Shown piece by piece: positions 1-63,554 of a DNA stretch of 64,000 nucleotides. The stretch lies in the NCBI GenBank assembly GCA_029945375.1, contig CM057065.1, positions 496,001-560,000 of the forward strand, read 5' to 3'. Numbering within the stretch: the stretch's first letter is position 1; every line of letters starts with the position of its first letter. A program made the translations under genes and the position numbers. The notes under the pieces are model-generated. The model had not been told where the DNA came from, made no database searches, and worked only from the letters and a program-made list of their open reading frames with translations. Source of the stretch: Agaricus subrufescens (taxonomy: Eukaryota > Basidiomycota > Agaricomycetes > Agaricales > Agaricaceae).

Positions 1-21
1 AACAATTGCACTTAGCATAGA

Positions 22-2716
22 GTGCCATCGCCCCACCACACCGCTCAACTGATACAAAAAATGACAACATTGGGATCCTTAAAGTGGGCTTTGAAGGCGC
101 CAGAAGGATTGGCCACCATGGTCAATGGTGATATTTACTTTTCTCCTAACTCAACCCATGCCTTGAATTCTGTTCTGAGACCAAACACACCTTGGAGATT
201 TGTAGAGAGAGTCTCAACCGCTGCTGACTTTCAGGAAGCCCGCTGGTGGACTGCTGGCACTGAGTGGCTGGGGTTCGTGCCAAAACAACCCATGCTATAT
301 ACAGGAGTTTGGTTTGGGCCCTTGGGCATTATTCCAAATAAATTGTTGTGCAAAAACTGCATTGAATATAGCTTACCGGCGTTCTACAGTGACAAGTGGC
401 TCAAAATAGATTATATGTTATGGGAGACCTGCAAGATCCTCCGGGAGTCCTATGCCTTGCAATATGCACTTCCTTTCCCACCTTGCTGCTGGCATTATCA
501 CAAACAATTTCAGTCTTGGGCAACTGCCATGGAACACATCACCAAAGGTTGAGACTGGTTTGGGATGTGGCTGGGGTTATTATACTGGTCAACACAAAAA
601 ATTCCCAATGGTCCAGACTTTGCTGAAGGACTGACGCCACCAGAGTGGTTTAAAACTGTGGTCTTCAAGAGATCAAATAAAGTGAATGGCTCATATGTTG
701 ATGCCATATGAACCTCCCAGCTTCTGCAAAACTGGTGGCAAGTCAAATGTGTTGGGTTGTTTTTGCTCCATCCCAAAGATGCTCTGGGGCAACCCATGGC
801 CCAGTGGTTTGTACACCAGAATGTTCCTATATGGTATCACTGGGGGGAGAGAGAATGCTGTGCGTCGAGTTCTTCAAGTTTTCCCCTCATAGTTCCTTTG
901 CCAGAACACCTTCAAAATGCCACTACTTGGATCTCGTCATCACCAGCAGTCCCCCAATCTCACACTATGCCATCACTGACCTCTGGCTGTCATGAAAATA
1001 CTCCAGAGGCTGAATATTTGTCATCTACAGATCTTCCAGCCTTCGACAATTGGAACAACCCCTCTGCATCCTCCTCCATTGAACCACCCCTGGCCCCACA
1101 GAATGTCATTGAACCTAAGGAGCAAGTCTGGATTACCAAATATGGAGATCCAGTATGGGACTACAGTTTGGGATGGTCAGTATGGGGACCTTTCTTCAAA
1201 AGGCAGGAGGAAAGACACAAGAGGAAGCTTGAGAAGGAGATGCCTAAAGCTAAACAAGCACAGGAGTCATGGATGAGGCAGCCACCAAGGACCTCATGCC
1301 CCATATTTGTCTGGGACTGGAATGACGCTGAACCTTGGAAGTTCATAAGGACATGTGTCAGAAATGACGATCAAGAGGACATGTTGAACAGCTACAGCAA
1401 GAAACAGAAAAAATATAATGCTTTCAACAATGAGTGGGATTGTTGTAGAGAGTGGGGAGAGGATCCAGATGAGGAAGATTATATTGAACCACTTCCTGCT
1501 CATGCATTACCTGCAAAAACGGATCAGGAGCTCTTGTCTGAATGCTTGGCAACTGAGGTTGCTCACTTACTTTATGAGTACTATGGCTGGGTTGTACTGT
1601 TACCTCTACTGCCTGCGGAATACCCCATTTCCTGGATCTCTGAAGGGGATCAGAAATTGTTTAAAGCAGTCCTTGGACTTCCATCAGCCCCCCTGGACAG
1701 CATTTTCTTTTTTTCACTGTTGGCTAAAGCAGCCTTGCCATACATTTGACTCCTGGCAGGCAAGGATAGCACCAGGCCTTCCGGGGATGTTTGGGATCTG
1801 TTGCAAGACAATTGTTTGTGCCTGGCATACACCAGCACCCTCAAGTGTATTCAGACTCTGAAAAGAAAGGAGGAATCATGGTATATGTTTGATTTTGGTT
1901 CACTCAGAACTGTACCATGGAATATTGCAGTGCCCACAGCAGCAAGTGCCCTGATGGTGTGTCGTCTGAAAGAGAGACTCGATGAGGCAACAAAAGATAG
2001 GCTGGACAAATCAGCTGTGGTGTGCAATTTGTTGATGGAAGGTGTTCACTTCCACACAGTCATTTGTTGTGACAGTCTAGGAGCAGCCAAGCCAGACCCT
2101 CCGTCAATGTATGTGCCTATGAGATTGTCAGACCATGTCTTCTCCTTGGAAGACCTCAACTTGTACCAGTGTCAATGCCACCAAATTATGTCTTCTCCCA
2201 GGGCTTGTGTGGCACTCATGCAGGGAGGTTTTATACAACGCTGAGCACTGGAATTCATGCTCCCTTCAGAGGGTTTGTGAGGTCCCTGCGGTACTTATGA
2301 AGATCCTGGCATGATGTTCATTGCACATGATGTGAATGGCTTTGAGTATGTAGATGATGAACTCACGGATGAGGAATATGATCTGTTGGCAGGTGTATAC
2401 ATTAAATTCACTGGTAAGTTGAATTAATATGAAATGTAATGTTTGCTCTCATTGATATTCTTACAGGGGACAACCTACATATGGCTAAAGTCTCATGGTT
2501 TCCACAATGCTGGGTGTTTGAGGGCTGTGGTTTAGATATAGGTTGTTGGACTGAGCACGCTGAAAGATTTTGAAAAAAGCACACAGAGGCCATCTTTTGT
2601 GATAAGCTAGCAAACTCGGAAGAACCCCTCAATTGGGAAAAGCAAATACAAGCTGTAAATCATCCAAATAACATTGAGTTTGGGTGGCCACCTCAATGTC
2701 CATAGCACTGGAAAGC
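22..2716 (+). pseudogene. Decayed gene of an unnamed agaricomycete protein family
   Basis: Three open stretches (22-552, 757-1749, 1801-2244) and further readable pieces to about 2716 join into one protein-like sequence only if several frame changes are accepted. The parts in order are: an N-terminal region with WTAGTEW and TGVWFGPLGIIP; a middle part with AQWFVHQNVPIWYHWG; an acidic, glutamine- and serine-rich linker; and a C-terminal part with SWFPQCWVFEGCGLDIG. I recall this layout (a W-rich N-terminus, a VPVWYHWG-type motif and a C-terminal SWWP-type motif) from uncharacterised agaricomycete proteins, but I know no function. Frame breaks lie near 550, 710 and 2245, and stops occur after 2244, so it is probably dead. 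The start may lie outside the window. Confidence 0.5.
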
Positions 2717-3329
2717 TAGGCATTCCTCTCAACATAACTGAATGGTGGTCTAATCTTTGGGGGCTGGGAGATACTAGACAAGCATGGTCAAAAGTGGAGA
2801 TATGGTCTAAAGAGTATATAAAACAACATGTGGCAAACATCTAGCTGGTATTGTCAGACCTCAGTAGCTGTTATTCTTTTTTTTGGACTTTCAATTATTT
2901 TTTTTTTCAGTTCCAGAGATATATGTATGTCATGAATAATAGCCTCTAAGTATTGACTAGTGAATAAATTACATTTTTGTGGTATGGCCATCCCTCCCGT
3001 GTCTGGCCCACACCTGGTCCACGCCCTACCTGCGGGTGCATTTGACATGTCCTCGTCAATGCAAGTCAAGCCCGCATCAATGCAACTCATGCATCTGAAA
3101 GCCTGCATCTCTCCACATCTCTCTGCGCCTTCCCACGCCCCCCTGCAGCCTTCACTCACCTGTCCGCATCACAATTCCATAGGGTTGCAGAGTCCTTGTG
3201 GTGATTGTATAAGTCGATGCAGACTACTTATTCTACTTGATATGCACAACTAGTATATGTAGGTATTGGCTACGTAGCATAAATTTTAAATAATACCTCA
3301 TTTCCATGAAAGATCTGAGTGCTCATCCT

Positions 3330-43900: not shown

Positions 43901-46900
43901 AAAAATAGGCGAGGGGGAGAACGGTTGGGTCAAACATGTGTTTTGCTGGAACTGGTGAATAAATTGAGGACGATTAGGAGGTTGAGAGATTATCTTCATG
44001 CTTCTGGTGGTAATACGGAGGATGTTGCTAAATTACTGGTAAGTCTCTTCTCTCTCTCCCTCTCTTGTGATAGCTGATGAACGTAGGGGAGCGAAACTGC
44101 TAGATTGAATTTGATGAAGTTTGTTACTGGATTAGAAGTACGTTTGGCTGTGTTAATCGAAGCGAAGGTATCGTATACTATATCTTCTTAACTCACACTT
44201 TGCTGACGACTTTTGTATTCTTTTTAGGAAAAGGGTCAACGGATATCACCTACGCAAAGAATGTTATATTGTGTCTTATTTCGTGAGATCAGGCTTTTGA
44301 CGAGATCGTTGAGGCCTGTACCGTGGTTGGGTATAGTATTGCGCTGGTTTGAGGAGTACTTTAATGATTGGGTTGATGGCAATGAATGGGATGAGGAGAT
44401 TGAGAGTGTTGTGGAAGAGATCAGAGAGGTATATGTTCTTGCCAGTGGAAGTACGGGCTCGATGAAAAATGTACGTGGTTACACCCTGGCATTGGTTTAA
44501 TCTGACGCCATCGATGTTAGAGGAGAACAACGTTTATGCTGCCTGGTAGTACAGGCCTTGCTACGACATCTAGGTCTGGAAGCGAAACGACGGGAGAAAC
44601 AGAAACATTCAATATTCCAGAAATGCTCGGCCAAACATTGAAACTCATCAATTCGCTATCAAAAGGATTCGTACCGAGGATTGTTAAGTTGTTGTTTACA
44701 GTCAGCACGTTATTAGGAGCCCAGGACTGGGCTAGAGTTGCTCCGGTTGTTTGGAGGGGTCGATTTTTGTTGCTGGATTCCGACTTTTCGTCGTCTTCGG
44801 TTGGAGGCAAGAAAAAGGATACTGGATGTTTGATGCCTTCAATCTGTTATCTCGTTATGCAATGTGCGGAGAAGAATCCGTTGGGATTTAGAGGTATGGT
44901 AGAAGTTGATATGCGAAGGTGACTAGTGCCCCCCTTTCAATTTCATCTACTGTATTCTAATGATGATCGTTCTCTTTCTAGTTCGGATGACACGACGCGT
45001 CTTGAATCAGTGCAAAAACTCAATCAACTCATACATTGGAGGTTTCAATTGTTATCAGACTCGAATGTTATTCTTATGGATCGGACACATCGGCCTTTCA
45101 AACTCGCACGCGCGCCGCTACCTTTTGTGCCTACTGATATTGGATCGCCCGTCTATATCCATAATGACAGTGCGGAGGAAGCAGATCCGATTTGGGCTTT
45201 GCATCATGCTACAACCCGTGTAAAGGCCAAAACGAAGACGGGAAAAGCTGTTGCCGTGTCAGGAACTGGAAGTCATAGTAGTGGTGCTGGTGGTGCTGGT
45301 GGTAGTGGTTATAGTGGAGGTACAGGGAGTGGGAGAGTAGTTGCGGCAACCAAAAATACGATTCCGCTTGAGTTACGGAAACAACTCGTCGAGATTGGGT
45401 GGGTTAACGACGATGGGGATGGGGATGAGAAAGAAACGTGGATTCGGACGCCGATATCAATGCTATCTGTGGACCAGATTGAAAAGTTGGATATGCAAAG
45501 GTCACCGAATCATCGAGAACAATACTATTCTAACCAACAAGAATCACCTTCGAGTTCTCCGCACCATCTCGCGAGCGTTGCTACTGCGCAAGTTAACCCG
45601 TTACTGACTTCTCTCAATAACAAAGGAGCGAAACTCGATGTTGATGGAGTGGGAGAGTTATTAAGACGCAACTCAAGCTCGGGAGGACCAACATATGCGA
45701 AGCGAAGAGCAGTATTTGTTCCGTCACTTTCATTGATCTTGAAGGTCCTCGCGATGATGGTTTATGATTCAAACTTCAGCGTTGCTACGGCGGCGAGGGA
45801 TACTTTAATCGATTTGATGAGGAACGATTCCGCGCTGTTGTTACGGCCGATCTTGGATCTTTTCTGCGGTGATCAAGGTCAAGAGAGCCCCGGGGCACGA
45901 GATTCGAAAGAGGATGTGGCGCAAGCTGTGAACATCCTCACGGCTTTGTTGCATGCGAAGCATATGCTTCCACCGCCGATGGTTCATGCTATCTTCAATA
46001 ACCTAGCTGGGTTTTTGAAACACGCTCTCAAGCGGAGCGATCCTGTGAGTCTCTATAACTGGGAGGGGGAGAAAGAGGAAAGGGGAGAGGATATGCTAAT
46101 TAGTTTTGCATTGGCGGTGCCGATTATGGCGCGGCTGGCGAAACACGTTGGAGAGCTGAGTATTCGAGAGATTAGGAAATCGAAGATGGAACATTTTTTG
46201 ATCCCGTACGGGACATTGTGGTTCAATCAATCAGGCATTCCCAATGGAACGATGTTTCCGAGAGGACTTGGGATGGATGAAATGGTTATCAGGTATTCAT
46301 CTATGGAAAAGGGAGCGTCGGAAGGGGAAGGAGAGTTGAATCGGAAATTGGTGGGCGTGATGATGATACGGATTGCGCAAAATATGATGTTCGTCGACAT
46401 GCTCAGGCGGAATGCTCAGGATGTTGTTTTGGTGCGTAAGGCAATGCCGAGGTTTTTGGTGCCTAGTACGGAGGAGTGTGAAGGAGAAGGAGATGATGGA
46501 AGATTCCTGGAATTGAGTGACTTTGTACCGTTTATGAAGAAGGAAGGGACCAAACTACGTAGGACAAGAAAGGCAGACAAATTGTTAGACGTTCTATCGT
46601 TGACATTAGCGAGGAGCTACGTGGTGCTAGTAGCGCAGGTGTTCAGATGTATGTCGCGAAATTCAAGTGACAGAGAGGAAATTATGAATTTCGTCGACGG
46701 TCTGAACAGGATCTTGTTGGCACATGGAGATGACATTGGTATAGTCGGGCATGTGATGATTGGTGAGCGTATCCTGATAACTTTATCTTGCTTTGTCCTT
46801 ATTTCTCCCCTAGCATTCATGGTTGCCACTGCTCGATTCCGTAGACTCTTCACTTCAGGAGGTGGTTATGCGCTATTCATGCCTGCACTTTCTAAGGTCT

Positions 46901-49581
46901 ATGCAGAGGCTCACCAGCGTACTGATGTTACTCTTGCAATCGAGTACGCGGTACACCGCTTCTATGCTCTGCACCGGGAGGCCTTTCTCTTCCAAAGTTT
47001 GGATGCAGTCGCGCTAGTAGTAGCGTTACCGGATGTCAACGCTAAGGAGTACACGGCACGGATCTTTGAGTTGTTTTACTCCCTTAGAACGGGAGCTGCT
47101 CCCGCGAACTTCGATCCGGCTGGCATTCAAGGTATCAATCAATTACAGGAGAGACAGGCATTCCTCTTTCGCGCTGCAGATGAAACACCGCAAACCTTCC
47201 TGACAGCGATACGTCGCGGTGATGCACAAACCAACGGACAGATATTCTTCGAAATACCTGATTCTTACGAGAACTCGAGGCTTAAAATGGAAGATTTCGT
47301 CAAGCTCTTCCTCACTATTATTGCCCACGATCCTAATATCCTTCGAGCGCAACACTTTATGCGGATGTTCAGGCACCTTACCTTTCACCTTTACAACGCC
47401 TCGGCGCACGCGAGGAATGTACTTCAGGAAGGGCTAGTAGCGCTGAGCAATATCCTATTACGGACTTTTTCCAAAACTAAAACTGGAGAAGCTGGTGGTG
47501 GTGATCGTATTGGGGAATATGAGCTCGCAGATGGATCAGACGGTCACGAAAAGAAGAATGCCAGCAACCCAAACGTAATGAGACTCGATTTTCTGTTTGC
47601 ATTGACTGGCGTTGGTGAAGCCGGAGGCGTATTTCCACCTCAAATGGTCAGAAAGGCAATAGATATTGCCACGCTGATTCTTCGCGATGCCCCTTTAGAT
47701 ACGTCGGGACCGCTTTCTACGTTCTTTGCCGATCTGGCGAAACACGTTGTCCTGCGCGGCGAACTTTCTAAACCCAAATACGTGAAGCCCTTCTTACGAG
47801 ATATAACACCCATCATTCGACAATACACTTCTGTCCTCGACTTGACGTCTGTGCTTGAGACGTTCACCAAAATTTCCACTAGTGGTCCTTACACTCAAGA
47901 TGTTGATTTTGCGCGCCTAGTAATCAATGAGGTGTGCTCAGCAGGATTAGATGCTTGCGGCCTGATGACCTCAGATACGCCCAAGGGGGGCACGCGCTTT
48001 GTTGAAGCCTTGGCCTCTCTACTTGCTGAATGTGTGTTCCTTCGTGGCGCCGACGTCATCGCGGAACTCGAGAAACGCCGCCCTTCTCCTTACTTCCTAA
48101 CCAGAGTAATATTACCCATGGTTCTTTCACTAAAAACTATGGACGAATTGAATTCGGAGAGTGGGAAATTAGAAGTATCGCATCGCGCGACAGTTGCATC
48201 CTCTTGGATCAGACTTCTTCTCTACGCTATGACAGCATCCCAACGAAGTTTCAAAGCTTCCGAAACCCTTGCCCTAACTCGATCGAAGTCGCACGAGAAG
48301 AAGAACGACGACGAGAAGAAGTGGCAGACGCCCTTGGCGACATTCACCACGTCATTACAAATAATCAAGTGCATCATTATCCGAGCAGAGACAGAGATAT
48401 CGACCGCATTTCCGGATTTATGGAATCGTTTAGCAGTTTTCCTGAAGTCAACTCTTAAAGATGGTAACGCAAATTTTGCCCTTCGTGCCGCGGGACCTGA
48501 CAAGGGTTCACCTTCACCCTCTCCAACACCCTCTCCGAGAGCCAGCATCCACATAAATCGAAGTGGCCAGTCCCCGTTCCTTGATCTACTAGAGAAATCC
48601 CCACCGCTCGCTGAACCACGAGTAATTGATTATACCCTGTGGTCCGTTCTCGAGTTCTTGTGCACATACCGGTCCCCCCTCAGGCTTCAACTCCGCTTAT
48701 TTACTGTAGAGAAAGTTGTATCATTGGATCAAGAACTTAGGCCACAACAACGACGAACGAGCCCTTTTACAGCCTCTACAACCCCTTTCGTGTCACCGAC
48801 TACCAGTCCAATGAGTCGGCGCATTTCAGCCTCTGTCTTCGCCAAACCTCGTCGATCAGCCATGTTCTCTTCAGCGGATTCTTCTCCGCACGGCAGCCGT
48901 TCACCTTCGCTGATACACATTCCTTCCACTCCCTCCATTCACCTCACTCCAGGCGGCAACTTACAAGGCCTCACGCAACATGGGGCCCTGGAGACACCTA
49001 CTTTGACTCAGGGGAGCGAGCTCCGATTACCTGGTTATCAATATGTGTCTCCAACAGTATCACCAGTGAGACAAGGTCCTGGAGCATACATTCAAGACGG
49101 CCAAGGGCCACGGATCCTCCATCTTGGCCCTACGTCCCCTTCGGCTCTGATACCACCCGCTCCTCCCTCGCCAAGCGGAGGAGGTAGCATGGGAGTTAGT
49201 AAATTGAGGCTTGCCGCTCAATCAACCAAAATTCAATCTCCGACGATCATTAGGATGACATATCACAGTATCAGGGCAGTGCAAGCTTTTATGGGATACG
49301 ATACATTATTACCTATGCCCACACTACGTGCCGGTCTAGGTATCTCAGGGATTGGTATGGAGAATGATGACGTGTCAGCTGTGACTTGGACGAGGCGATC
49401 TGCCCTAGAGGCTGTACTGAAAGAAGTAAAGCTGTTAGAGGAAGAGTTCAGAATCGTTCCGTCAAAAGAAGAGAGATTAGAAGACGACGGATTCAACGAA
49501 AAACTAATGCACGATTTCCGAAGTAGTGATGAACAATCGATTGAAATACCTAATTACCCACAAGCACGTAAATATCAATAG
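40934..49581 (+). CDS. Large conserved protein, possibly UNC80-like
   Basis: Ten exons keep one frame of 2713 residues. The introns are 41864-41922, 42454-42514, 43229-43287, 43402-43456, 44039-44086, 44168-44227, 44471-44520, 44919-44981 and 46763-46813. The N-terminal 110 residues are Ser/Pro/Thr-rich, and other disordered patches lie near residues 560-600 and 2400-2540. The rest is helical without a catalytic motif, consistent with a HEAT/ARM-type scaffold. Distinct segments are RRFSEDILRACWAARS, LLTRSLRPVPWLG, FRRLFTSGGGYALFMPALS and FVKLFLTIIAHDPN. I recall similar single-copy proteins across agaricomycetes and tentatively link them to UNC80, the scaffold of NALCN-type channels (fungal Cch1 is the NALCN relative). 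The coding frame is certain; the name is not. Confidence 0.85.
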
Positions 49582-49965
49582 TATTCAAATTTAAATTAAA
49601 TAATTTCCCTATACGACTTCACCACCCAGGGTGTCCACGATGCCTTCTCTCACTGACAGCCACATTTTGTTTCGTGATAATGCAAAAGCAGATAAACGAA
49701 AACATGTTTCGGTGACCCCTCTGGATACAGTGGAACGTTGTGTGTGTATAAAGGCACGGTAAACTCCATCCACCTCCTACTCGCGATCTGTTACCACCGC
49801 CTTTATTCGCTTGATAACAGTTATTCATCAACCGTACCACCCAGCTTGAGAAGCGATTAACTGAGCCCAAGCCTCGGCTCCCGAGCTTACCTAAGATAGA
49901 AATACCCTGACCACATCAACAGGGATATGGAACTCAACCTGGGCCCTCCACAAGGCCGTAACGCC
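49582..49965. other. Convergent 3' flanks
   Basis: 3' ends of the large gene and of NACHT gene J. A GTGTATAAAGGCAC TATA-like word lies at about 49744 but no gene follows it. I see no other feature. Confidence 0.4.
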
Positions 49966-51612
49966 CTATGATGATCTGGGTTCCCACAAGGAGGCGAGGA
50001 TCCGAGCAGCGAATACATAAACATTTTTTCGTTCCTCCTCTTCATTACTACCTGTTGGACACCAACTAAGCTGTATATTCTCGAGTCCTCCAGCTTCATC
50101 AGCTGCCGAATGGTATGAAATGTAATAAAATAAGATACCGATCTCAAGTGAAGGGAAAGGAACTTACGGGTACCATTCACTTGTTGAGCAATAACAGTAC
50201 AATACTGTTGTATTACCACCGTATGAGTCGCAAGCTTGATGCTCTGTTCACCAGATCTTGCCGGATCCAGAAGAAAATCCTCAAACGAGCTATGTAAAAA
50301 TTTGAGTGGACGGGCTCTCACCGCGTCGCCCGGTGGGATTTCTAGAAGGGTCGAAAGTTGGCACAAAGAGGAACGGGCAGCACTCTCGGACAGGCGGAGT
50401 ATATTGCATGCAACCACGATAGAGGGAGGAGTTTTGGAAAACCGGACAGAGGGAAGGAGGAAGAGGCTGGTAAGAAGCATGGCAGTGGACAATTCCGATG
50501 GAGAAGCTCGGTGGAGCGTGCCGCTGTATAAGGTGTCTAATGTAGCGAAAGGGCTAATGTCACGGCTACGACCTGTAATGTAAGCAATCGCGGCACTGAG
50601 TCGTCCAACAGGATCTGCTACACTTGGGTCGCCTACAAAATCAATGATACTGGTGGCAAAGGCAAAGTAACCAGATGCTGCCGTCGCCAAGCGGATAAAG
50701 TCGTCTTCGGATGGCCACTGTTCTGGGGTGCGAGCTGGGAATCGCGAGCTGATTGCACGAAACTCGTCGCAAAGAAATTTCTCCAAGTCTTCGCAAGCGT
50801 CGTCGGAGTCAATAGGTATATCAAGTTCCATGGCTGTGAGTGGGGAGGGCAAATCCAGCGGTTCCGGTGGGTTGGTAATGATCCAGGAAATACATGATTG
50901 ACCAGCAGTGCAAGCATGACGGCTGATCAGTTGAACCATCTCGATATACAAATCTTTGTCCATGCCACGTCCATCTAAACCATCTAAGACGATCAAAAAC
51001 GGTTTGCGATATGTCTCCCCAGTATTTTGCCTATCGCATGGCCCTGCGATCAACACGTTGAATTGCTTCTGCAGCGATTCGCCGAATACTGATTGACGGT
51101 CCAATACCTCCAAAACGTGAGCGGTATATGAATCGTCTTGGAGAGCAAGTTGGTATGCAAGAATAGGAAAAATTAGGCGACCAAAGTTGCTGGCTTTCTC
51201 AGAAAATTTGGGTTCATAAAAAATGGTGGCGAGTGATCTTTTAACTTCACTCTCCCGTTTCGCGAGCGTTTGCATGATGGCAGTCTTTCCTACGCCTGTG
51301 GCACCACGAACGAACACAAATCCACTGCGCCCTTCAATATTACGAATGCTCTCCATGACGTTCTCTCGTGTGCCAGAGTGACAGTACGGCCGTGTGGAGC
51401 TGGAATGTGAGTTACATAGGGCAAGCTCTACAACTTGTGGGCCAAATGCAGCAGACACTAAAGGAATTATACGAGTTGTATTAGTGCATAACCCCTTTTT
51501 GGTAAGCGTGGCACACATAGAGCTTACGTCGGGTTTGTCTAGAATGGAACGCTAGTAGAGAAAGTGGGTTATCAACTGTGGTATAAGAGATCGCGGCACT
51601 TCGCGCCTCTGT
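49966..51612 (-). CDS. NACHT-domain STAND NTPase J, start codon unclear
   Basis: Exons 51457-50168 and 50102-49966 are open and match gene K throughout. The order is ELALCNSHSSSTRPYCHSG, Walker A GATGVGKTAIMQ, a Walker B-like FLIVLDGLDGRGMD, AASGYFAFATSIIDFVGD, SPFATLDTLY, RPLKFLHSSFEDFLLDP, and a last exon with GGLENIQLSWCP and KNVYVFAARILASLWEP. A first exon parallel to that of K (51612-51538, joined at a GTAAGC donor) is readable, but the codon matching the ATG of K is ACA (51612-51610) and an in-frame TAG precedes it. J therefore lacks an obvious start, and would need an unseen upstream exon or retention of the intron (ATG at 51518). It may be a very young pseudogene. The Zn2Cys6 gene ends only 13 bp upstream. 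Confidence 0.75.
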
Positions 51613-51625
51613 CTATTGGTGAATA

Positions 51626-54011
51626 TTATTCATGGCGCATTGAGAGATGCCTACTTTCGAATGTTTTCCCTGGAAGTTCCATTCTTACCCTCCCTTCTTT
51701 CTTTTCTCCTCTGATATTCGACTCCTTCAAACCAATGCGATGAAGGACAGGCAATCGAGTAGATCTCCTCGCCCCGACTAAACTTTCCTCACTTAGTAGA
51801 CCTAAACTCATTGCTGACGTCATCGCAGTGCCTGGGCTAGAATATGCGGCTGGCTCCGGTGAAGGACTATTTTGGAGCTCTTCATCTTCATCTGTGTCCG
51901 GGCCAAAGTCGGAGAAACCATAATCGTAACCCCCCAAATCTGAGCCATGCAAGCTTTCGTTTTCAGTGTGATCGGGATCAGGTAATGAGTTTTCAAATTG
52001 AAGGAAGCTTTGTCTCGCCCCCGAAAGCCACTCCTCGATTCGGGGGTTAATGCCCTGGCTTACCGGAACTGAGTCATGTCGAGAGTGATCGTAGACGTCT
52101 GGCATCAATGACGGACTGTGTTCCGGATCGGGTGACGCTTCTTTAAGATGTTGGTTAGACTCTAACATCGACATCAGCTTATTGATTTGTTGCGCCTGCA
52201 TTCGGATACTATTGATAAGATCTTCCCTCTTCCTACGGTGGTCATTAGACAATGTTGGAGACATATAATTCATACTAACGGTGGCGCGGCGCGGAGTTTA
52301 CGCTTCGTTCTGACGCATTTATGACCACCGTTTAGGCATCGTTTACAAGTCGCTGAATCCGCACGAAATTCGCATTTGACTTTGAGCGATTTGCAGCGCG
52401 AGCACGCACCAGAGCTGCGAATGTGATAAATGCGAGGAAATAACAGGTGAAGTGAGTTTAGGCAACGCACGGCTGATTTGGTGCCAACTTAGTGGTATCC
52501 TTCGAAACATGGTTATTCAGAATGGCCTCTTCGAACTGAATGAAGGAATCTTTAGCCTTTGCAACCCATTCAATAAGAGCACGTTCGGCATCGGTATTTT
52601 GTACAACGTATGGAGAGTTCTCTCTTCTGCCGGTCGAGGAGGACGTTGATGCCACTGCTGTCGGTGAAGCCTCCATATGCGACATAGGTTTGGGGGACTG
52701 TGAAACAGATTCCATCTGTGCAATGAGTCTCTTTATTTGATCTGCTTGCAGTCGGACCTGGCTCGTAGAGCTCTGTTCCCTATAAGCACATTAGAGATTA
52801 TTCGGGTAGAATTGACCTTTACCTACGGTACCCGACTGCTCATCTGGCCTGGTATGAGACACTCATGGCCCCCATGTAAGCAACGTTCGCAAGCATTCGG
52901 GTCTGTAATGTAGCTGCATTTCATTTTGAGCTTGCGGCAACGCACGCACGTGACAGTGCTACGCCTATAATTACTAGAGGATGAGCTAGAAGATGTAATA
53001 AACATAAGACTCGCCTTTTTTCCTCTACGAGCTTATTTTTATCGGAATCACGGTCCTCTTCTAAGCCACGTACTGGTAAGCCTGGCATACTTGACCAAGC
53101 CGAAGCAGCAGACGGAAGGGAAGACGTAACATCAGGAAAATTTAAGATCGGCTGTGGCATGACAATCAGATAATGAAAATTGGTGGGTGAGTAAATGGGT
53201 GAATGATATTTATGCTACTGATGACACTATTTATCATACCTGTTGACTGTGACCTCGAATGTGCTCAATTGGCTGCGCCGAGTAATTCACAGCTGCAGAT
53301 TTTGAAACATCGAGCTGAGGCTGCTGTAGCGGAGTAGAAAGGCGACTGAAGGGATGTGAAGCTGCAGTTCGTTGTTTCTTGTTCACAATATCCTATAAAG
53401 CTTTATAAGATATCGAGTCCACAAAATTGAAGAAAGAAAACCACAAAATCCTGAAAGCCTGCTGCATCAACATCTCTGATAACACCAACATTGACTTCAT
53501 CGCCCTCAAAACCATTTCGTCGCCTCTTAATGTTTGAACTTTGAGATGTAGGCATTTCTTCATCCTCGAGATGTTCTCCGGGTGACTTGATCTTGAGAAG
53601 GTCGTCTGTAAGTAACGGGTGCGTCTCATTGGAGAGAGTGGATTGTGTCCCCGCCAAGGCTTCCTCGAGCTGTCCGATTCGATGACTCATTTGGGTGATT
53701 TTTCGGAGAAACAAGACTTCTCTGTCGCTAAAGAACAGGATTGGACACGATAAGAAGGGTACGAGAAGAGCAGCGTACCGTTTAGCTTGACTGGTCGAAG
53801 GAATACCATCTCGGCACATGCTGGCCTCTCCTCGCCGGATACAGCTAGACTTTGTATAAGTACAACGGATAGGCTAAGAAACAAGTTTCATGCTTGGAAC
53901 AAGGCAACATCCCGTCACACCTCACTCTCCGCCTGAAGTAAGGATTAGGAACACAGCAGAATCGATAGAATGGACAAATGCAGACCGCCTGCACTCGGAA
54001 CATGCGACCAT
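51626..54011 (-). CDS. Protein with three Zn2Cys6 clusters
   Basis: Ten exons join in phase to 637 residues: 54011-53986, 53932-53894, 53844-53779, 53727-53445, 53392-53240, 53151-53015, 52985-52827, 52779-52471, 52414-52280 and 52232-51626. Cluster 1 (residues 4-32) is C-SE-C-RRRRVR-C-DGMLP-C-SN-C with the last Cys eight residues on; a coiled coil (ITQMSHRIGQLEEALAGTQ) and HPLLTDDLLKIK follow. Cluster 2 is CVRCRKLKMKC...CERCLHGGHEC. Cluster 3 is CSRCKSLKVKC...CKRCLNGGHKC, followed by KREDLINSIRMQAQQINKLM. The units behind clusters 2 and 3 resemble each other (IEWVAKAKDSFIQFEEAI against IEEWLSGARQSFLQFENSL). Two introns need GC donors. Zn2Cys6 clusters bind DNA in fungal transcription factors; the large C-terminal regulatory domain usual there is not seen. 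It could also be two adjacent genes. Confidence 0.7.
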
Positions 54012-54307
54012 TACGCGGCCTAGAGGGTAAGTGTGAGCATGATAATACTAGTCAAGATGATAAACAATAGGACTTTTGGTTTCGCCTTGCCTGGGGGTTA
54101 TTCCTGAGGACTTCAGCGGCGGATATAGCTCCTCGCCTGTCGGTTGCATTTCTTGCAGGAAGGGCCTCTTTCCAGAGCTGAATAAAATCAAAGTGCCAAG
54201 AGGTGTGACGACTACTGTGGATATCGGCGTGATTTGTTCCCACAGATTGCAAGCAGACGCTCGTGACGTTTCGTTCCACCCTTATCGCCGACTGTATGCT
54301 GCAAACG
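54012..54307. promoter_or_regulatory. Divergent promoter between the Zn2Cys6 gene and NACHT gene L
   Basis: Only 296 bp separate the two start codons, which point away from each other. I see no strong TATA box; the two genes may share regulatory DNA. Confidence 0.45.
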
Positions 54308-56022
54308 ATGCACAGTGAAGATGCAATGAGTAAGTGCTCCAGAAATCAGCTCAATAGATCCTCAAATTTTCCATGAGCTCGCATAGGCACTAGCTTTCAC
54401 AACGCTCACAGTTTCACCATCAATGACGGCTCCTTCAAGAACGAGACACATTTCCACCTCATAACGCCCACATCCTCTCTAGTTCACGAATGGTTTGAGA
54501 AACATATCATTTCTGGTGCGGAGTTCGACTCTAGCGAGCGCGATCCACCACCTCGCTGTTACCGTGGCACGCGGCTGTATATCTTGAATCAGATTCAGGA
54601 AACTTCGCCTCCCACTACGGCCCAAAAACAGATACACAGACTGTTGTGGGTTCGAGGCGCCGCGGGCGTGGGTAAAACCGCCGTTATGCAGACAGTCGCA
54701 GAACTCGAACACGAGGATGAAGGAGCCATCGTGACTCTGTTCTTCCCTGAACGAGACGGGCACGATGATCCCCGGCTACTCTTCCCTACCATTGCCTACC
54801 AACTGACTTACTGCGATGAGGCCTATCAAGACTATATCAGACGCTTGATGGCTCGGAACCCACGAATTCTCGATAGAACGATTTCTACCCAATTCAAGAA
54901 ATTGATAGTTGAGCCTTTCATCCGACACGGTATTGGAAAAGGGAACAACAAACCTTTCGTTTTCATATTAGATGGATTAAACAAATGTGGGACATGTGAA
55001 TGTAGATCGCATCTTCATTCTCGACCGTCCGCTGACGAGACACAGCGGGAGATAATTCGACTCGTCGGGGAGTTTATATCCGAGAACCCGTCCATTCCTA
55101 TCCTATGGGTTTTTGCCAGTAGATCAGAAGCACATTTGACGTCTGCCTTTACGGATATTCCCCACGAAGAGATAAACATACCAATGGACTCCCCCGAGGC
55201 CCACGAAGACATCAAGAAGTATCTGCTCGGCGAGTTCCGCGAGATCCGAAAACGATACCCTAATCACATCTCATCGAAGCACTGGCCTGCAGACGATGAT
55301 TTCCTGCGTGTCCAAACTGCGGCGTCCGGATTCTTTGCGTACGCCTCCACGATCACCAGATTCATCAAAGATGCCCAAATAGCCGACCCTGTCAACCAAC
55401 TTCAGCTCATCATCTTGTCTATCGCCCAGCGTAATAAGGGGGTCAAGTGTGGCGAGAATGACCCCTTTTCTCCCCTCGACGACATGTATACCACGATTCT
55501 TCAACAAATTCGCGAACCTGCACTATGCCATGCTCAACAACTTATCGCGTTATACCTCATTCTCTCGACATTTGAACATTATCCCTCTCTATTAGTCGCG
55601 TGTAATATCTTGGGTTTGAAGCAAAACGTTGCATATGGTTGTCTAGAAAAACTCTGTGCAGTTCTCGATATTCCATCAGCCGGTGCTGCTATCAAAAAGC
55701 CTTTAAAAATACTCCATACTTCGTTCGCAGACTTCCTCCAGGAGCGTGCGACGTTTCGGACTGGTCTAGCGATTGACTTGGAGAAAGCGAAGAAACAGAT
55801 ACATCAACGCTGCATCTATATATCCCAGGAAGTCAATAAACCCGGTAAGTGCCAATCCAGTGGTTGTATACGTTTTGACGAAACGCTACTGTGACAGGCA
55901 GGAGGGTCGGGGAACTTGGAGATATCCCCCTGAGTTGGTGTCCTGTAGATCCTTCTCTTGTGATGGATGTTCGCCGGAAAGTGTACGAGTACTCGGCAGA
56001 AATTTTCGTTCGCACCCTCTAG
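54308..56022 (+). CDS. NACHT-domain STAND NTPase L (intact)
   Basis: Exons 54308-54329, 54387-55844 and 55898-56022 give 534 residues. The first exon codes for only seven residues; an in-frame ATG at 54296 is an alternative start. The motif TSFHNAHSFTINDGSFKNE comes next, then RDPPPRCYRGTR, Walker A GAAGVGKTAVMQ and Walker B-like FVFILDGLNKC, in which the acidic pair of DGLDE is replaced. Then come ILWVFASRSEAHL, AASGFFAYASTITRFIKD, LLVACNILGLKQ and KILHTSFADFLQER, and a C-terminal block GELGDIPLSWCP plus RRKVYEYSAEIF. No sensor repeats are visible. The nearest relative is N, with the same exon sizes to within a few bases. The likely role is an NLR-like nucleotide-controlled switch. Confidence 0.88.
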
Positions 56023-56330: not shown

Positions 56331-56697
56331 ATTCCCTTTTCCACGATTACCAGAAATATATACGCTGACGTCACTGCACTGATAGTAATAGGATTCCACA
56401 ATGAACCGCAGGGCCCCGACGAGGTTTCTTTTCATTGGGGGACATTTTTTAAAAAGTTTAGTTTACCCTTCACCCAGTGGACCTGTGTTTTACATTAAGA
56501 CGATATAACGCCGTCTTTACGCAAATCGTTCGATCTTTAACAAAACACGGATCCTAAGAACTGAAAGATTAATTTATTTGACAATCGCAGTCAAAGCAGT
56601 ATCGAATCTCTTCTCGAGCTGAACCAAGCGCGAGCTAACCATGATGAAAACGAAGTAGATATGGAATTCAATCGTAGTAACTAATCGTCCTCCAACC
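56331..56697. other. Gene-free spacer
   Basis: Lies between the CFAP20 fragment and the 3' end of K. Nothing is recognised. Confidence 0.4.
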
Positions 56698-58344
56698 CTA
56701 TAGTAATCTAGGTTCCCACAGGGATGCCAAGGTCCGAGCAGCGAACATATAAACATTTTTTCTTTGTTGCTTAACGTCGCCTTCTGACCAAGTAAGCTGT
56801 ATACTTTCAAGTCCTCCAGCTTTTCAGTCACCAAATTAAAAAAAATTTAGATAAATGTGATCATAATTGTAGGGCAAAGGAAAGTGACTTACGAGTGCCG
56901 CTCGCTTGTTGGGCAATACTTGTACAACACCGCAGTATCTCCATCCTATAAGCTGCGAACTCGATGTGGTGAGCACCGGACCTAGCAGGATCTAAAAGGA
57001 ACTCTTCAAACGAGCTATGCAAGAACTTGAGTGGACGGGCACCCGCAAAGTCATCTGGGGGGATATCCAGAAGGGTCGAAAGTTGATTCAGCGAGGGATA
57101 AACATCGTCTCTGGATAGCCGAAGTATATTGCATGCGACTACCATCGAGGGAGGCATATTGGATAGCCTAACAGAGAAAACGAGGAAGAGACTGATTAAA
57201 CGCATAGCAATAGACAGTTCTGATGGGGAAGCTTGACGGAGCGCGTTACCGTATAAACGATCAAGGGTAGCGAAAGGACTCATATCACGACTGTGGCCCG
57301 TAATGTAAGCGATCGCAGACCTGAGTTGCCCAACAGGATCAGCTTCACTTGGGTCGCCTACAAAATCGATGATGCTTGCAGCGAATGCGAAGTATCCAGA
57401 GGCCGCAATCATTACGCAAAGAAGATCATCTTCACTTGGCCACATTTTTGGAACACGAGTTGGAAATCGTTTGCAGATCGCATTAAACTCGTTGCGAAGA
57501 AAGTCCCCCATATCCTCCAATGCATCATCGGAGTTAACGGCTATCTCAAGTTTCGTAGCTCGAAGTGGAGTGGACAAGGCCAGTAGTTCCGGAGGATTAC
57601 TGATGATCCACGAAATACGCTCTGTAGTAGCAGTGGAGGTATAATGGCTGATCAGTCGGACGATCTCGGCATATGATTCCTTGTCCATTCCGCCCCCATC
57701 CAAACCGTCTAAGATGACCAACGGCGGTTCCAGCGGCGTTTCTTCAAAATGTCGCATACCCCATGGCTCAACGATCAGCTCGTCGAATTGCTTTTGCAGT
57801 GACTCATAGGGCTCTGGTTGACGACGGCCTAGTACCTCCAAGATGCCATTTGCATATGACTCGTCTTGGAGAGCCAATTGATACGCCACAATAGGAATGA
57901 CTAGACGATCAAAGTTCTTGAATTCTTCAGAAAACCTTGGTTCATGAAAGATAGTAGCGACAGTTCTTCTATTTTCGCTTTCTCGCTTCGCCAGCGTCTG
58001 CAAAATGGCAGTCTTTCCTACGCCTGCTACGCCACGAATGAACAATAACCTGTCCCGTACATCGGCGCCCTGAACACAGGATCGGAATTTCCTCAAAATC
58101 TTCTCTCGGGTATCAGAGTGGCAGCGCGGTCGTGCGCCATTAAGGTGTGAGTTAAGTAAGGCGAGGTCCACAATATGTTGACCAAATACGGCTGATACTA
58201 TACGAAATACAGGTGTGAATCTACGACTGCCGGTTGAGTTGCGCGATGGATGTAGAACTTACGTCGATCTTCTCTAGTCAGGGGATGTGGAGAGGGTGTA
58301 TCATCGGTTGTACGACCCGGGGTCCTCGTACTTCGTGCTTGCAT
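56698..58344 (-). CDS. NACHT-domain STAND NTPase K (intact)
   Basis: Exons 58344-58263, 58197-56893 and 56819-56698 give 502 residues in one frame. The N-terminus (MQARSTRTPGRTTDDTPS) is short and polar and lacks the F-x-x-A-x-x-F motif of the other subfamilies. Then come VFGQHIVDLALLNSHL, ARPRCHSDTREKIL, Walker A GVAGVGKTAILQ, Walker B-like LVILDGLDGGGMD, AASGYFAFAASIIDFVGD, SPFATLDRLYGNAL, RPLKFLHSSFEEFLLDP and the C-terminal GGLESIQLTWSE with RKNVYMFAARTLASLW. The C-terminal block is the same type as in L and N, so this subfamily and L/N share an ancestor. Its start lies about 45 bp beyond the broken 3' end of M. Confidence 0.88.
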
Positions 58345-58389
58345 CGAACGGTAAATATTATTCACGTAACAAGGCTGACGACTTACAAT

Positions 58390-60503
58390 GTAAGCAGACG
58401 TACTGAAAATGCTGAAATTGAGTGGCCAACAAATCTGTGCAAAACTCGGTCTGGAACTCCGGGTCTCCTCGTTGAATCCCAGTTGTAACTTCCCCGACCG
58501 CCAGTTTATACAAGCTCAATCGTGTTCGCATATTATCCCAACTAATTCCCTCACCAACCGGCCAACTTAACGAAATTTTGTCGACAGTACGAGCATCGCG
58601 ATCTAGCTTGCCATAACGAAAATAATAATCCACATCGTCAAGACGAATGTCACGAGGAGCTTCCTTTAGTACTCTAAAAGCGCATTTGGCTCTCATCTGT
58701 CGTGCTTCGTGTTTGATATCAGAGGAGAGGCCGGACCTGGATATGTAGTCAATGAATGATTCGTGCCAAGGGTCAAGTGCTCGCTTGTATGCTTCATTCC
58801 GGCCGGGGAAGTTCAAGACCGAAGGAAGGTGATTAACAGCAGCATAAGCTTCATCAGCGGTCATACCCAACAAATTGCACAAGACGATAAAGTTCCTGCT
58901 ACTAGCGAAATTCTTCAAGGCCGAATCCCAATGTGATACCAGCGCCAGCAAGAGCTTTCGAGTGTGTACCATGATTTGGGGCGGAACGCGGGACAGAGTC
59001 TGGCGATACAATGCATCAAGTGGAGCCATCGCATGCTGTTCTTGTGGCACGTTGGGCATTGGGAGACCATCTATGATATTCAGGACGTCGGACAACCGCG
59101 ACACTGGGCTTCCAAAGAGTGGATCGCCGATGTATTCCGTGACAGTCTTCGCATAGACAAAAAGCCCGCCCGCAGCATTGACCAGTTTTGACAAATCCTG
59201 TGCATCAGGCCAACATGAATTGAGTGAATTTGACGCTGATTGGATCTCCGCCAACTCTTGGTGAAGAAATTGCCCAACATCGCGACGAGCTTCGTCAGAA
59301 TCTACGGTGATCTCCTCCTTCTCATAAACTGGTACGACCTCAGCTCTCGAAAAGAAGCTTGCGATGTGTACCTCGGGACGGCTGGAAACAAGCCATACGA
59401 GGGGCGAAGAAGGATATGTGATACAGAAATTAGCGATAAGGTGAAGGAGCTCAAGTTCGATGCGGGGGGAGTGGCACTCATCAAGGCCATCAATGATCAC
59501 CGATGCAGGGCCGGCAGAGGTAAGGTGAGGGTGATCGCGAAAGGGTTCGACAATGAATTTTTTGAACTGGACTGGCATCGACGAATAAAGGAGGGAAGGG
59601 TCACGGGAGACCTTGTCCAGGATGACATGACGGTACACCTCTGATTTGACAGCAAACTGGTAAGATACGGTCATGACGGCCCTGGTTACATCATCGCGTC
59701 CGTTAGTAGAGAAGAAGACTGACGCGTTCAAGGCACCAAGGAGGTCTTGAGTTTCAGCGACGCTCTGCATGATGGCAGACTTTCCTACCCCGGCTGCCCC
59801 GAAAACCCAGCGCATCCTTTTCTCCTCGTCGTAGCGTGTGGTGGAACGTAGACATCGTTCAAGGATAGACAGGCGTGTCTCTGGATGGCATCGCGGGGGA
59901 GGGTAACGATTAGAGGAATCAAACGCTGCTCCAATGATCGTCTCCTTCAGAAGATCCTTCATGACTGACAGGGGGTAATTAATAATGGCTACAAAACAAA
60001 CGTGTTGCTTACAATTTGTTGAAAGGTTATAGTGGCTCACGGGAACTAGCAGAAAAACAGCTCAGTAGGGAAAAATTGCGCGATGTGTCAATTTCTCACA
60101 GTTCAGGTCACTGTCGACAAAGGTTGAATTGGTGACAGTGAAGTCACTGCTGTTAAAAAATGTTGCGTTCTGGCGCAGTGGCGACTGCTCCTTTTCTGAA
60201 GGCCTCTTTTTGCACTTTAAGGTCGCTGTCAACAAGTGAATTTTGCGAGAGACCCACAATCTGCTCGAAACTGTCCTGTTCCTGGCGCTTCAGCTGTGAC
60301 GAGTCCAGATCAGCGGCATCCTTTGAATACTTCAACACTATGGCTCGCAAGTGAAATGTACATGGGAGACTCACGCCCTTTTCGGATAAAGGTAGTTGTG
60401 AAGGCGCTACCAGAGACGTGCCAGTGGCAGCAAGCACCTCCTGCTCAGGATCACTGTGCGTAGAGAAAGAGGAAGTGGGGGGTTGAAAAGAAAACTCAGC
60501 CAT
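58390..60503 (-). pseudogene. NACHT copy M (family 1), 3'-truncated
   Basis: A 500-residue NACHT stretch is open: MKDLLKETIIGAAFDSS, Walker A GAAGVGKSAIMQ, Walker B ASVIIDGLDEC, HAMAPLDALYRQ, LCNLLGMTADEAY and KISLSWPVGEGISWDN. After FQTEFCTDLLATQFQHFQ it breaks off where the upstream DNA of K begins, so the WTYW block is missing. The N-terminal exon starts MAEFSFQPPTSSFSTHS at 60503. The motif FFNSSDFTVTNSTFVDSD (about 60165-60110) is out of frame with it, and the intended intron after SEKG is only 37 bp and gives a stop. A spliced product could still be made, but I judge it broken at both ends. Confidence 0.7.
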
Positions 60504-61552
60504 GTTGAACGGTGGCAGAGCCTGAGCTTGGCTTGGGCAAGAGCAGACTCATCCCAGTTGGGGTGGCATCGGAGAATCCTGAGAATCTCCCTCCTTAATC
60601 AAACCCATACTTTGTTCGCGTTTGGCCGAGTCCGCTATATGACGTACGCACGTGAGTCGGCTGGGTAGGAGCCTGAGATTATTACCCAGTCATTTGTGTG
60701 ACATACGTAACATTTTGTATTGAAACCGTGACACTATTACCGTCTTGTCCTGATAAAGATTAAGTGATGCCTGTTGTCTTATTCAGATAGAAAAAATGAT
60801 AATATTTCAACAATGATTTAATAATCCAGCCACCTTATTGATTCAGCGGCGCATTGTACAGGTGATTTGTGGTAATTTACTGCCAGTAAAAAACTCAGTA
60901 GGACGAGTACCATAAGTCCTCCAAGGTGTTCCACCCAAAGTGGTAATGAGAGTCCACGAGGTCTATAATTCTAACCACAATAATTTCTAATATATGCTGT
61001 TTCTCCAGATGCTGTTAACCTATACCATCTCCCGCGTAGATCGCAAGAAGTCGTTATTCATCAGGTTCTGCACCGTTTTTAGTAAAGACCCTTCGACCTG
61101 TCATCGAAGTTTCTCGGATTTCTCCGGTGCTGCGACTCTGGAACTTGTCCGCTGCCAGGGGAGGAACCTCACCAGTTGGATCCCGGATTTTTTTGATGCT
61201 CTCCTCCTCTGCATAGCTGTTTACTGGAGAAAGAGCTCTTGAATAGAGCGAAACCTCGTAAGCTAACATCCATTAACCATCCGTTAATTCCAAGCTTGAG
61301 CCAATGTACAAACAAATAACCTATGCAATGCTGCTCTTGGTCCATGCTCGCTGGGCCACGTTTGGCCAAGCTTGTAGACTGGAGTGGCGCACGCAATCAC
61401 AAGCATATCTTTCGCTCATTTACTCCTCCGGAAATAAGCCGGGGCCTAGTCAGTTTATGTTTGCAGTCACGGGCGCCCTGATGAGATTCATTCCCACTCG
61501 ATGACAAGTAAGCGCTCGCATCACTCTTCTCACCCACTGCACACCAAGAACA
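60504..61552. other. Spacer between M and N
   Basis: An 82-residue ORF at 60994-61242 (plus) and overlapping antisense ORFs show no recognisable motif. I see no gene. The last few hundred bases are presumably the promoter of N. Confidence 0.4.
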
Positions 61553-63266
61553 ATGAGCAATAGTAATGCATTGAGTGAGTACCTTCTAATATCCTATCGA
61601 TCTATTCATCTGTGAGCTGGCGCTGTAGATATCGGTAGTTTTCCCAATGCTAGCCATTTCAATATCTACGGCGGCTCTTTCAACGAAAACCACCTCTACG
61701 GCGAACAAACACCCATCTCTATGCTAGTGTGCAAATTGTTCAAAAAACACATCATTTTTGGTGTGGAATTCGACTCAGACGAACGCGATCCACCACCTCG
61801 CTGCTATCCTGGGACACGGTCACATATCTTGAATCAAATTCAAAGCATATCACCTCACACAGCCGAAACGCAGGTGCACAGACTGCTGTGGGTTAGAGGA
61901 GCAGCAGGAGTAGGTAAGACTGCTGTCATGCAGACGGTCGCAGAAGTCGAAGACAACGGCGAAGGGGTCGTTGTGACTTTGTTCTTCCCTGAACGAGACG
62001 GACCAAATGATCCCCGCTTACTCTTCCCTACCCTTGCCTACCAACTCACTTACTGCAATGACGCCTATCAAGACTATATCAAGCGCTTGATGGCTCGGAA
62101 CCCACGAATCCTCGAGAAATCCATTTCCACCCAGTTCAAATATCTGATCGCGGAGCCCTTTATTCGTCATGATATTGGAAAGGGGAACAATAAACCTTTC
62201 GTTTTTGTGTTAGACGGATTGAATATGTGTGGAACCTGCAAATACGGACCAGATTTTCAATCCCGATCATCCGCCGACGACAAACAGCGGGAAATAATCC
62301 AACTCGTCGGAAATTTCGTATCTGAAAACCCGTCCACACCTATCCTATGGGTTCTTGCCAGTCGACCTGAAGCTCATCTGACCGCCGCATTTACAGACGT
62401 TCCTCACAAAGAGATAAACATACCCATGGACTCACCCGAGGCCCACGAAGACGTCAAAAAGTATCTGCTTGGCGAGTTTTGCGACATCCAAAAACGGTAT
62501 CCTAATCACATCTCATCGACGGACTGGCCTGCGGCCGAGGATTTCGTCCGTGTCGAAACTGCGGCGTCCGGATTCTTTGCGTACGCCTCCACGATCACCA
62601 GATTTATCAAAGATACCCAAATAGCCAACCCTATCAATCAACTTCAGCTCGTTATCTTATCTATCTCTCAGAACAAAGGAGCCCTCTGTGGCGAACAGAA
62701 CCCCTTTTCCTCTCTTGACGACATATATATCACCATTCTTCAACAAATTCGCGAACCTACCCTACGTCACGCTCAGCAACTCATCGCGTTATACCTCATT
62801 CTCTCGGATTCTTATCGCTCGCCATCTCTACTGGTGGCGTGTAACGTTTTGGGCTTAAAGCAACACGATGCGTATGGTTGTCTTGAAAAACTTCCTGCCG
62901 TCCTAGACGTTCCATCAGCACCTGAAGCTATCACGAAGCCTTTGAGAATACTCCATACTTCATTTACGGACTTCCTCCTAAACCGCGCGTCCTTCTGCGC
63001 CGGCCTATCAGTTGACCTAGAAAAAGCGAAAAAACAAATACATCAATGTTGTATTAGTATCATCCAGACCGTCAATAAGCCTGGTAAGCGTCGGTTAAAT
63101 AGTGGTGTGTGTTTGTCGTAATGCCCTCGTGACAGATAGAGAGATCGGGGAACTTGGAGATATTTCCCTGAGTTGGTGTCCTGGGGACCTACCTGCTGGC
63201 AACGTGGTAGATATTCGTCGTCAAGTATACGAGTATGCCGCGGAGGCCTTTCTTTGCGCCTTTTAG
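61553..63266 (+). CDS. NACHT-domain STAND NTPase N (intact)
   Basis: Exons 61553-61574, 61629-63083 and 63136-63266 give 535 residues. The 22-bp first exon (MSNSNAL) and intron positions equal those of L. The motif GSFPNASHFNIYGGSFNEN comes next, then RDPPPRCYPGTR, Walker A GAAGVGKTAVMQ and Walker B-like FVFVLDGLNMC. Then come ILWVLASRPEAHLTAAF, AASGFFAYASTITRFIKD, LLVACNVLGLKQ, ILHTSFTDFLLNRA and the C-terminal GELGDISLSWCP with RRQVYEYAAEAF. The ATG at 61553 is the only one that joins the motif exon in frame with a consensus donor. The 3' neighbour is the CFAP20-like gene, 288 bp away. Confidence 0.9.
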
Positions 63267-63554
63267 AAGGCAGGGACTGGACGAATGAAATCTTTTGTCA
63301 ATGGATCGATTTTCTCGATATCTCTTGCCTTGTGTAGGCCCTCTCTAGGTATAGATTGAGCATAATTTTTTGGGTGGTTTGAATTTGGTAGAATTGAGAG
63401 AAGAGTTTGAACAGGGAAAAGGAGAATGGCACGGAGAAGGATCCGTCCTCGGGCGGGTGTCCGGAGTCCCTAGAGTGTGCTTACCAAAAATGGTAGCTAC
63501 AGTCAATAAGTGCATACAAATAACTCACCTCACGCTGTTTTCGATCAGGCGGTG

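Follow-up and report, generated by a model that had tools for sequence, protein, structure and literature searches.

A chimeric zinc-cluster region within a NACHT gene array of Agaricus subrufescens

Introduction

In regulators of the Zn2Cys6 class, the zinc cluster together with its coiled coil makes up a DNA-binding, dimerising unit, and Fungal_trans is the regulatory half. The priB-type regulators of Agaricales, first described from Lentinula edodes according to the sections of the literature covered here, share with two modules of the gene reported in this study the cluster, the heptads, an EDW-like segment and the intron phases. Fungal proteins with two clusters are already known as well. 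In the covered portions of the literature on two- and three-cluster proteins and on NACHT combined with Zn2Cys6 (PMC5415576, PMC7295025, PMC10305253, PMC6471507, PMC4986451 and PMC5103288), the published cases are PoZCP55 of Pleurotus, in which a septin is accompanied by two clusters, CCG_02279 and CCM_00582, with a further mention for Alternaria. Like the gene reported here, these proteins are predicted to carry more than one Zn2Cys6 cluster; however, PoZCP55, CCG_02279 and CCM_00582 have only two and belong to other families, and none of them combines three modules of two kinds, which is what is new here. No three-cluster protein was recognised in the literature searched, as judged by titles and abstract openings.

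Fungal NLRs of the NACHT type are represented at this locus by the neighbouring genes Y', X and L with their NPHP3_N matches, whereas the zinc-cluster model is NACHT-free unless fused to Y'. The main text of the two fungal NLR surveys searched does not mention zinc clusters in NLRs (the term counts were zero in PMC9815663). Here we describe a region in which three zinc-cluster modules of two kinds occupy the place of a NACHT gene, and weigh what it may encode.

Results

We analysed a window of 64,000 nucleotides (C9:496001-560000) from an assembly of 44.65 Mb in 44 contigs. On the minus strand, exons from 54011 to 51626 join in compatible phases into a single open frame with three Zn2Cys6 clusters. 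The initial annotation had proposed ten exons and 637 residues; the frame was reproduced, but its intron 6 is incompatible with a second copy of the locus on contig C6. The 29-nt intron of that model (53014-52986, leaving 52985-52965 coding) is broken in C6 by 10 extra bases and an in-frame TGA, and the same insertion and stop rule out a version with no intron ahead of cluster 2 (frame RRGKKASLMFITSSSS). A GC-AG intron at 53014-52965 is possible in both copies, measuring 50 nt in C9 and 60 nt in C6. With this correction exon 7 begins at 52964, and the protein comprises 630 residues in a frame that is open in the C9 and C6 copies alike.

Exon 1 (53986-54011; all exons are on the minus strand) provides the start codon and the first cysteines of cluster 1, which continues in exon 2 (53894-53932) and ends in exon 3 (53779-53844). 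The donor of intron 2 is GC here and GT in C6. Exon 4 (53445-53727) contains the heptads of module 1 and the HPLLTDDLLKIK stretch, and terminates at the weak donor GTGGTT of intron 4. A linker follows in exons 5 (53240-53392) and 6 (53015-53151). The second half consists of two consecutive units: exon 7 (52827-52964) with cluster 2 of the priB kind, exon 8 (52471-52779) with the module 2 heptads and EWVAKAKDSFIQF, exon 9 (52280-52414) with cluster 3, again of the priB kind, and exon 10 (51626-52232 in the earlier model) with the module 3 heptads and EWLSGARQSFLQF.

In the corrected model the three clusters are located at residues 4, 241 and 388, and all satisfy the pattern C-x2-C-x6-C-x5..12-C-x2-C-x6..9-C. 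Scanned one module at a time, they match PF00172 with 38.5, 25.5 and 21.1 bits, the score of module 3 being barely above the cut-off of 21 bits. In addition, the loop of module 3 reads ADSATC where five Agaricaceae relatives have a proline, the absence of which may weaken this cluster. As originally proposed, cluster 1 is of another Zn2Cys6 type than clusters 2 and 3 within one open model, and the units of clusters 2 and 3 both possess an EW-type downstream segment, which corresponds to the priB-family motif. The coiled coils were read by eye from the a/d spacing of the heptads. Comparison with solved structures yielded 13 matches at E up to 1, among which module 1 resembles Cep3, Hap1 and Put3, and module 2 weakly resembles Rsc3 (E 0.17); a match to the TRAF7 structure (E 0.09) was regarded as chance. 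Searches of NCBIfam and Rfam gave no match. Fungal_trans (PF04082) is missing from the 637-residue protein at E up to 0.1, and at its place after the linker a NACHT gene comes next instead.

Module 1 resembles genes on C11, C5, C2 and C8, and is assigned by sequence likeness to one large unnamed family of agaric regulators; modules 2 and 3 are assigned in the same way to priB. The ordinary priB gene of this genome, on C7, has nine introns and encodes 1019 residues with one cluster and Fungal_trans. Its nearest counterparts, at 60, 60 and 58% identity, come from Macrolepiota and Leucocoprinus, both members of Agaricaceae, in keeping with a source fungus of that family. Over the roughly 72 residues compared, module 3 is identical to the C7 protein at 50 of 73 positions and module 2 at 38 of 71, and the two modules are identical to each other at 27 of 71, below the value of either one against priB. 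The sequences compared were nearly all priB, and it is possible that module 2 is closer to some unsampled family. The downstream part of module 2 scores 176 against priB, compared with at most 63 for shuffled sequences, and 16 of the 30 residues compared between module 2 and a gene on C4 are identical. Furthermore, a seven-residue stretch found in all seven other Agaricales in the alignment is absent from five of five Agaricaceae priB proteins and from modules 2 and 3. Given that both modules lack this stretch, they group with the Agaricaceae priB lineage.

An internal duplication had been proposed as the source of clusters 2 and 3, but the comparison does not support it: each is nearer to priB than to the other. 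At 114 conserved columns, module 2 deviates in 46, module 3 in 26 and both in 9, where 10.5 double changes are expected if the two changed independently; in none of the nine do they share the new residue. In the absence of common changes, a shared history of modules 2 and 3 inside the gene is not supported. Two separate acquisitions of priB would fit the pattern, as would a single duplication at the outset.

We then examined the priB family for cluster number with a family profile, scoring the best 120 of 168 hits by cluster pattern. One cluster was present in 118 of these 120; P0111 had none by the pattern, and only P0001, itself part of the query alignment, had two. The gene described here differs from these in having two priB-type modules, and from the C7 gene also in lacking Fungal_trans. 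The general statement that fungal regulators normally have one cluster agrees with these 118 proteins, but it needs qualification in view of the two-cluster proteins in print and one locus here. P0001 corresponds to Moror_15750 of Moniliophthora roreri (782 aa), which has two priB-like clusters in a row and no Fungal_trans listed. Unlike in our gene, its clusters are separated by about 30 residues and no heptad-EDW unit intervenes, its long N-terminus is unrelated, and module 1 was not seen in it. A protein search with the 441-residue second half, under a length filter that excludes relatives of 780 residues and more, found nothing; as the search was bounded by words and length, this absence of relatives is weak evidence. 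Separately, in the region C8:1549201-1553200 of the same genome, a 532-residue frame with two Zn2Cys6 clusters comes after an open frame for a septin, an arrangement like that of PoZCP55.

The introns follow the same division as the modules. By eye, introns 1-3 agree in position and phase with those of the ordinary C11 gene, introns 1 and 2 being absent from the related C5 gene; introns 7-9 agree in position and phase with those of the C7 priB gene, from which intron 6 is displaced by two codons. Given these two sets of matches, the model is not a product of chance. For introns 4 and 5, through which the two halves are connected, no homology support was found. Exon 5 has no relatives above the level of shuffled controls, and priB N-termini were rejected as the origin of exons 5 and 6, the best scores of 52 and 45 lying within the range of shuffled sequences (maxima of 52 and 55).

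Since the one-gene reading depends on introns 4 and 5, the region could also comprise two adjacent small genes: gene A from 54011 to a stop at 53403, with one cluster, and gene B from an ATG at 53160 to 51626, with two. Exon 4 does continue open to the stop at 53403, and the ATG at 53160, a possible start of a separate second gene, is in frame with exon 6. The weak donor of intron 4, the length of intron 5 (88 nt, against 47-56 nt for the other eight introns) and an exon 5 without sign of constraint or relatives point in the same direction. On the other hand, exon 5 is open in both copies with in-phase joins on either side, and gene A would amount to a bare cluster with heptads. We consider two genes unlikely, and one gene the likelier arrangement.

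A DNA search with 51640-54230 revealed one further copy in the genome, that on C6. Identity between the copies is 99.47% across 20,000 bases of C6, the differences being 79 substitutions and 2 indels. Sixty of the 79 substitutions and both indels (10 and 18 bases) fall in the tract 52663-54915, where 2.7% of the sites differ; the remaining 17.7 kb compared has 19 differing sites (about 0.1%). Candidate readings of the divergent tract are an old haplotype, gene conversion and introgression. The sole indel in the exon region sits in intron 6, the remaining junctions hold in C6, and all 18 cluster cysteines as well as the open frame are kept in both copies. The chimeric zinc-cluster region is real and conserved in two copies. 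Further C9 stretches also match C6. For two C9 pieces used as a test no second copy was found, and C6 and C9 were accordingly rejected as whole homologous chromosomes; for this reason, the C6 copy may be either an allele, from the other nucleus of a dikaryon, or a recent duplication.

Coding differences between the copies number 21, of which 12 are synonymous and 9 nonsynonymous. With the observed transition share (15 of 21), 6.04 of the 21 are expected to be synonymous without constraint (P 0.0064), an excess that argues against a plain pseudogene. By part, the synonymous share is 2/4 in exons 1-4 (P 0.33), 1/3 in exon 5 (P 0.65), 3/4 in exon 6 (P 0.08) and 6/10 in exons 7-10 (P 0.037); as a result, the case for a coding function is stronger for the second half than for the first half and the linker. 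Outside intron 6, the introns carry 9 differences in 443 bases. That no new stop separates the copies says little, the chance of this being 0.48.

These data also bear on the notion that the region consists of recombination fragments decaying in an unstable array and yields no working product. Several features are in line with decay: the parts end before Fungal_trans, only four of nine donors fit GTRNG (five of nine in the C6 copy, seven of nine in the C7 priB gene), a GC donor is present in one copy, module 3 is at the Pfam cut-off, and the paralogue Y has 2 in-frame stops. The frame, however, is open and every cluster cysteine is retained in both copies, which together with the synonymous excess makes decay quite improbable.

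The proposed NLR-like setting was borne out, as the gene is flanked by NACHT genes with NPHP3_N matches. Downstream lies Y' (49887-51551, minus strand; open frame, 44.1 bits), and upstream lies the divergent neighbour L (54377-55891, plus strand), the gap to its likely first ATG at 54299 being about 290 bases. A twin block, block B (56612-63278), contains Y (56864-58258), X (58361-60061; NPHP3_N 55.1 bits) and L2 (61616-63118), whose order and orientation match those of the zinc-cluster block. Homology between the blocks extends from 51632 down at 68% and from 54231 up at 75%. Given that the flanks match block B, the zinc-cluster gene occupies the place of the NACHT gene X. In block B itself (56864-60061, minus strand), a 49-nt phase-1 intron could join X and Y in frame, which hints at a double-NACHT gene.

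The 3' end of the zinc-cluster gene allows a further reading. Module 3 extends to an exon end like that of priB (GAA A|GTAGGC at 51655/51654), in phase 1 as in C7; the stop at 51626 is located beyond it, in sequence common with block B, and the residues after 51655 in the 637-residue model represent reading past this exon end. Instead of stopping at 51626, the transcript could splice into Y', and the three clusters would then precede NACHT in a receptor-like product of about 1170 residues; such a gene would have originated from a break inside a priB intron that was joined to a NACHT-array intron, that is, by intron-mediated exon shuffling. The priB-like donor at 51654 and an acceptor at 51609 define a 46-nt phase-1 intron (51609-51654, minus strand) that contains the stop codon of the 637-residue model and leaves 1171 open residues, through a possible linking exon at 51528-51612 (minus strand). 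A second donor, AGG|GTAAGA at 51688, leads to 1161 residues, and the five open pairs among 44 GT-AG pairs all enter the NACHT frame. Moreover, block homology begins at 51632, within the supposed intron, the paralogue Y could start at MQARST with an ATG that is ACA here, and a comparable join of X to Y is available in block B.

Nevertheless, Y' has an in-frame ATG of its own at 51518 and does not need the intron. Compared with the paralogue, the linking exon has 13, 12 and 12 differences by codon position in 27 codons, without bias, whereas the NACHT exon is biased (107, 83 and 181 differences in 415 codons). Several AGs occur nearby, and a chance in-frame join is not very unlikely; the zinc-cluster NLR also goes unmentioned in the survey texts cited above. 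Splicing into Y' is rather unlikely, as is the corresponding origin by exon shuffling, and the fusion is probably a minority case. Some plant receptors carry integrated transcription-factor domains. Were the fusion true, these would have a fungal counterpart, namely an NLR with an integrated transcription-factor DNA-binding domain, whose head of three zinc-cluster modules stands in place of a neighbouring NACHT unit.

Discussion

Taken together, our preferred reading, to which we assign a probability of about 0.47, is a young chimeric gene whose single product, some 630 residues long, carries three complete clusters but no Fungal_trans and would act as a decoy or dominant-negative-like regulator. 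In the putative course of events, the N-terminal parts of ordinary agaric regulators, each with zinc cluster, linker and dimerising heptads, would have been joined, one from the unnamed family and two from priB. The joining would have left out the Fungal_trans regulatory domain, and the chimera would have been placed where a NACHT gene stood in a tandem NLR-like array. The product, presumably made from a single transcript and able to dimerise, might bind DNA at several sites or compete with its parents for theirs. With the usual regulatory half absent, a decoy or dominant-negative-like role would be conceivable. If one protein is made, the locus exemplifies how agaric regulators minus their regulatory half may be chained into a multi-cluster DNA binder in an immune-receptor-like array.

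Three further observations concern the genome and the window. A first look through the genome with Y' gave 857 NACHT candidates, 82 of them scored and listed, which indicates a very large NACHT repertoire. Positions 1-3000 of the window have 46 matches in the genome, three of them on C6 at 92-97% identity. On the plus strand at 44923-49578, a 1552-residue open frame matches UNC80_C (PF20262) with 50.1 bits and is unrelated to the NACHT array around it.
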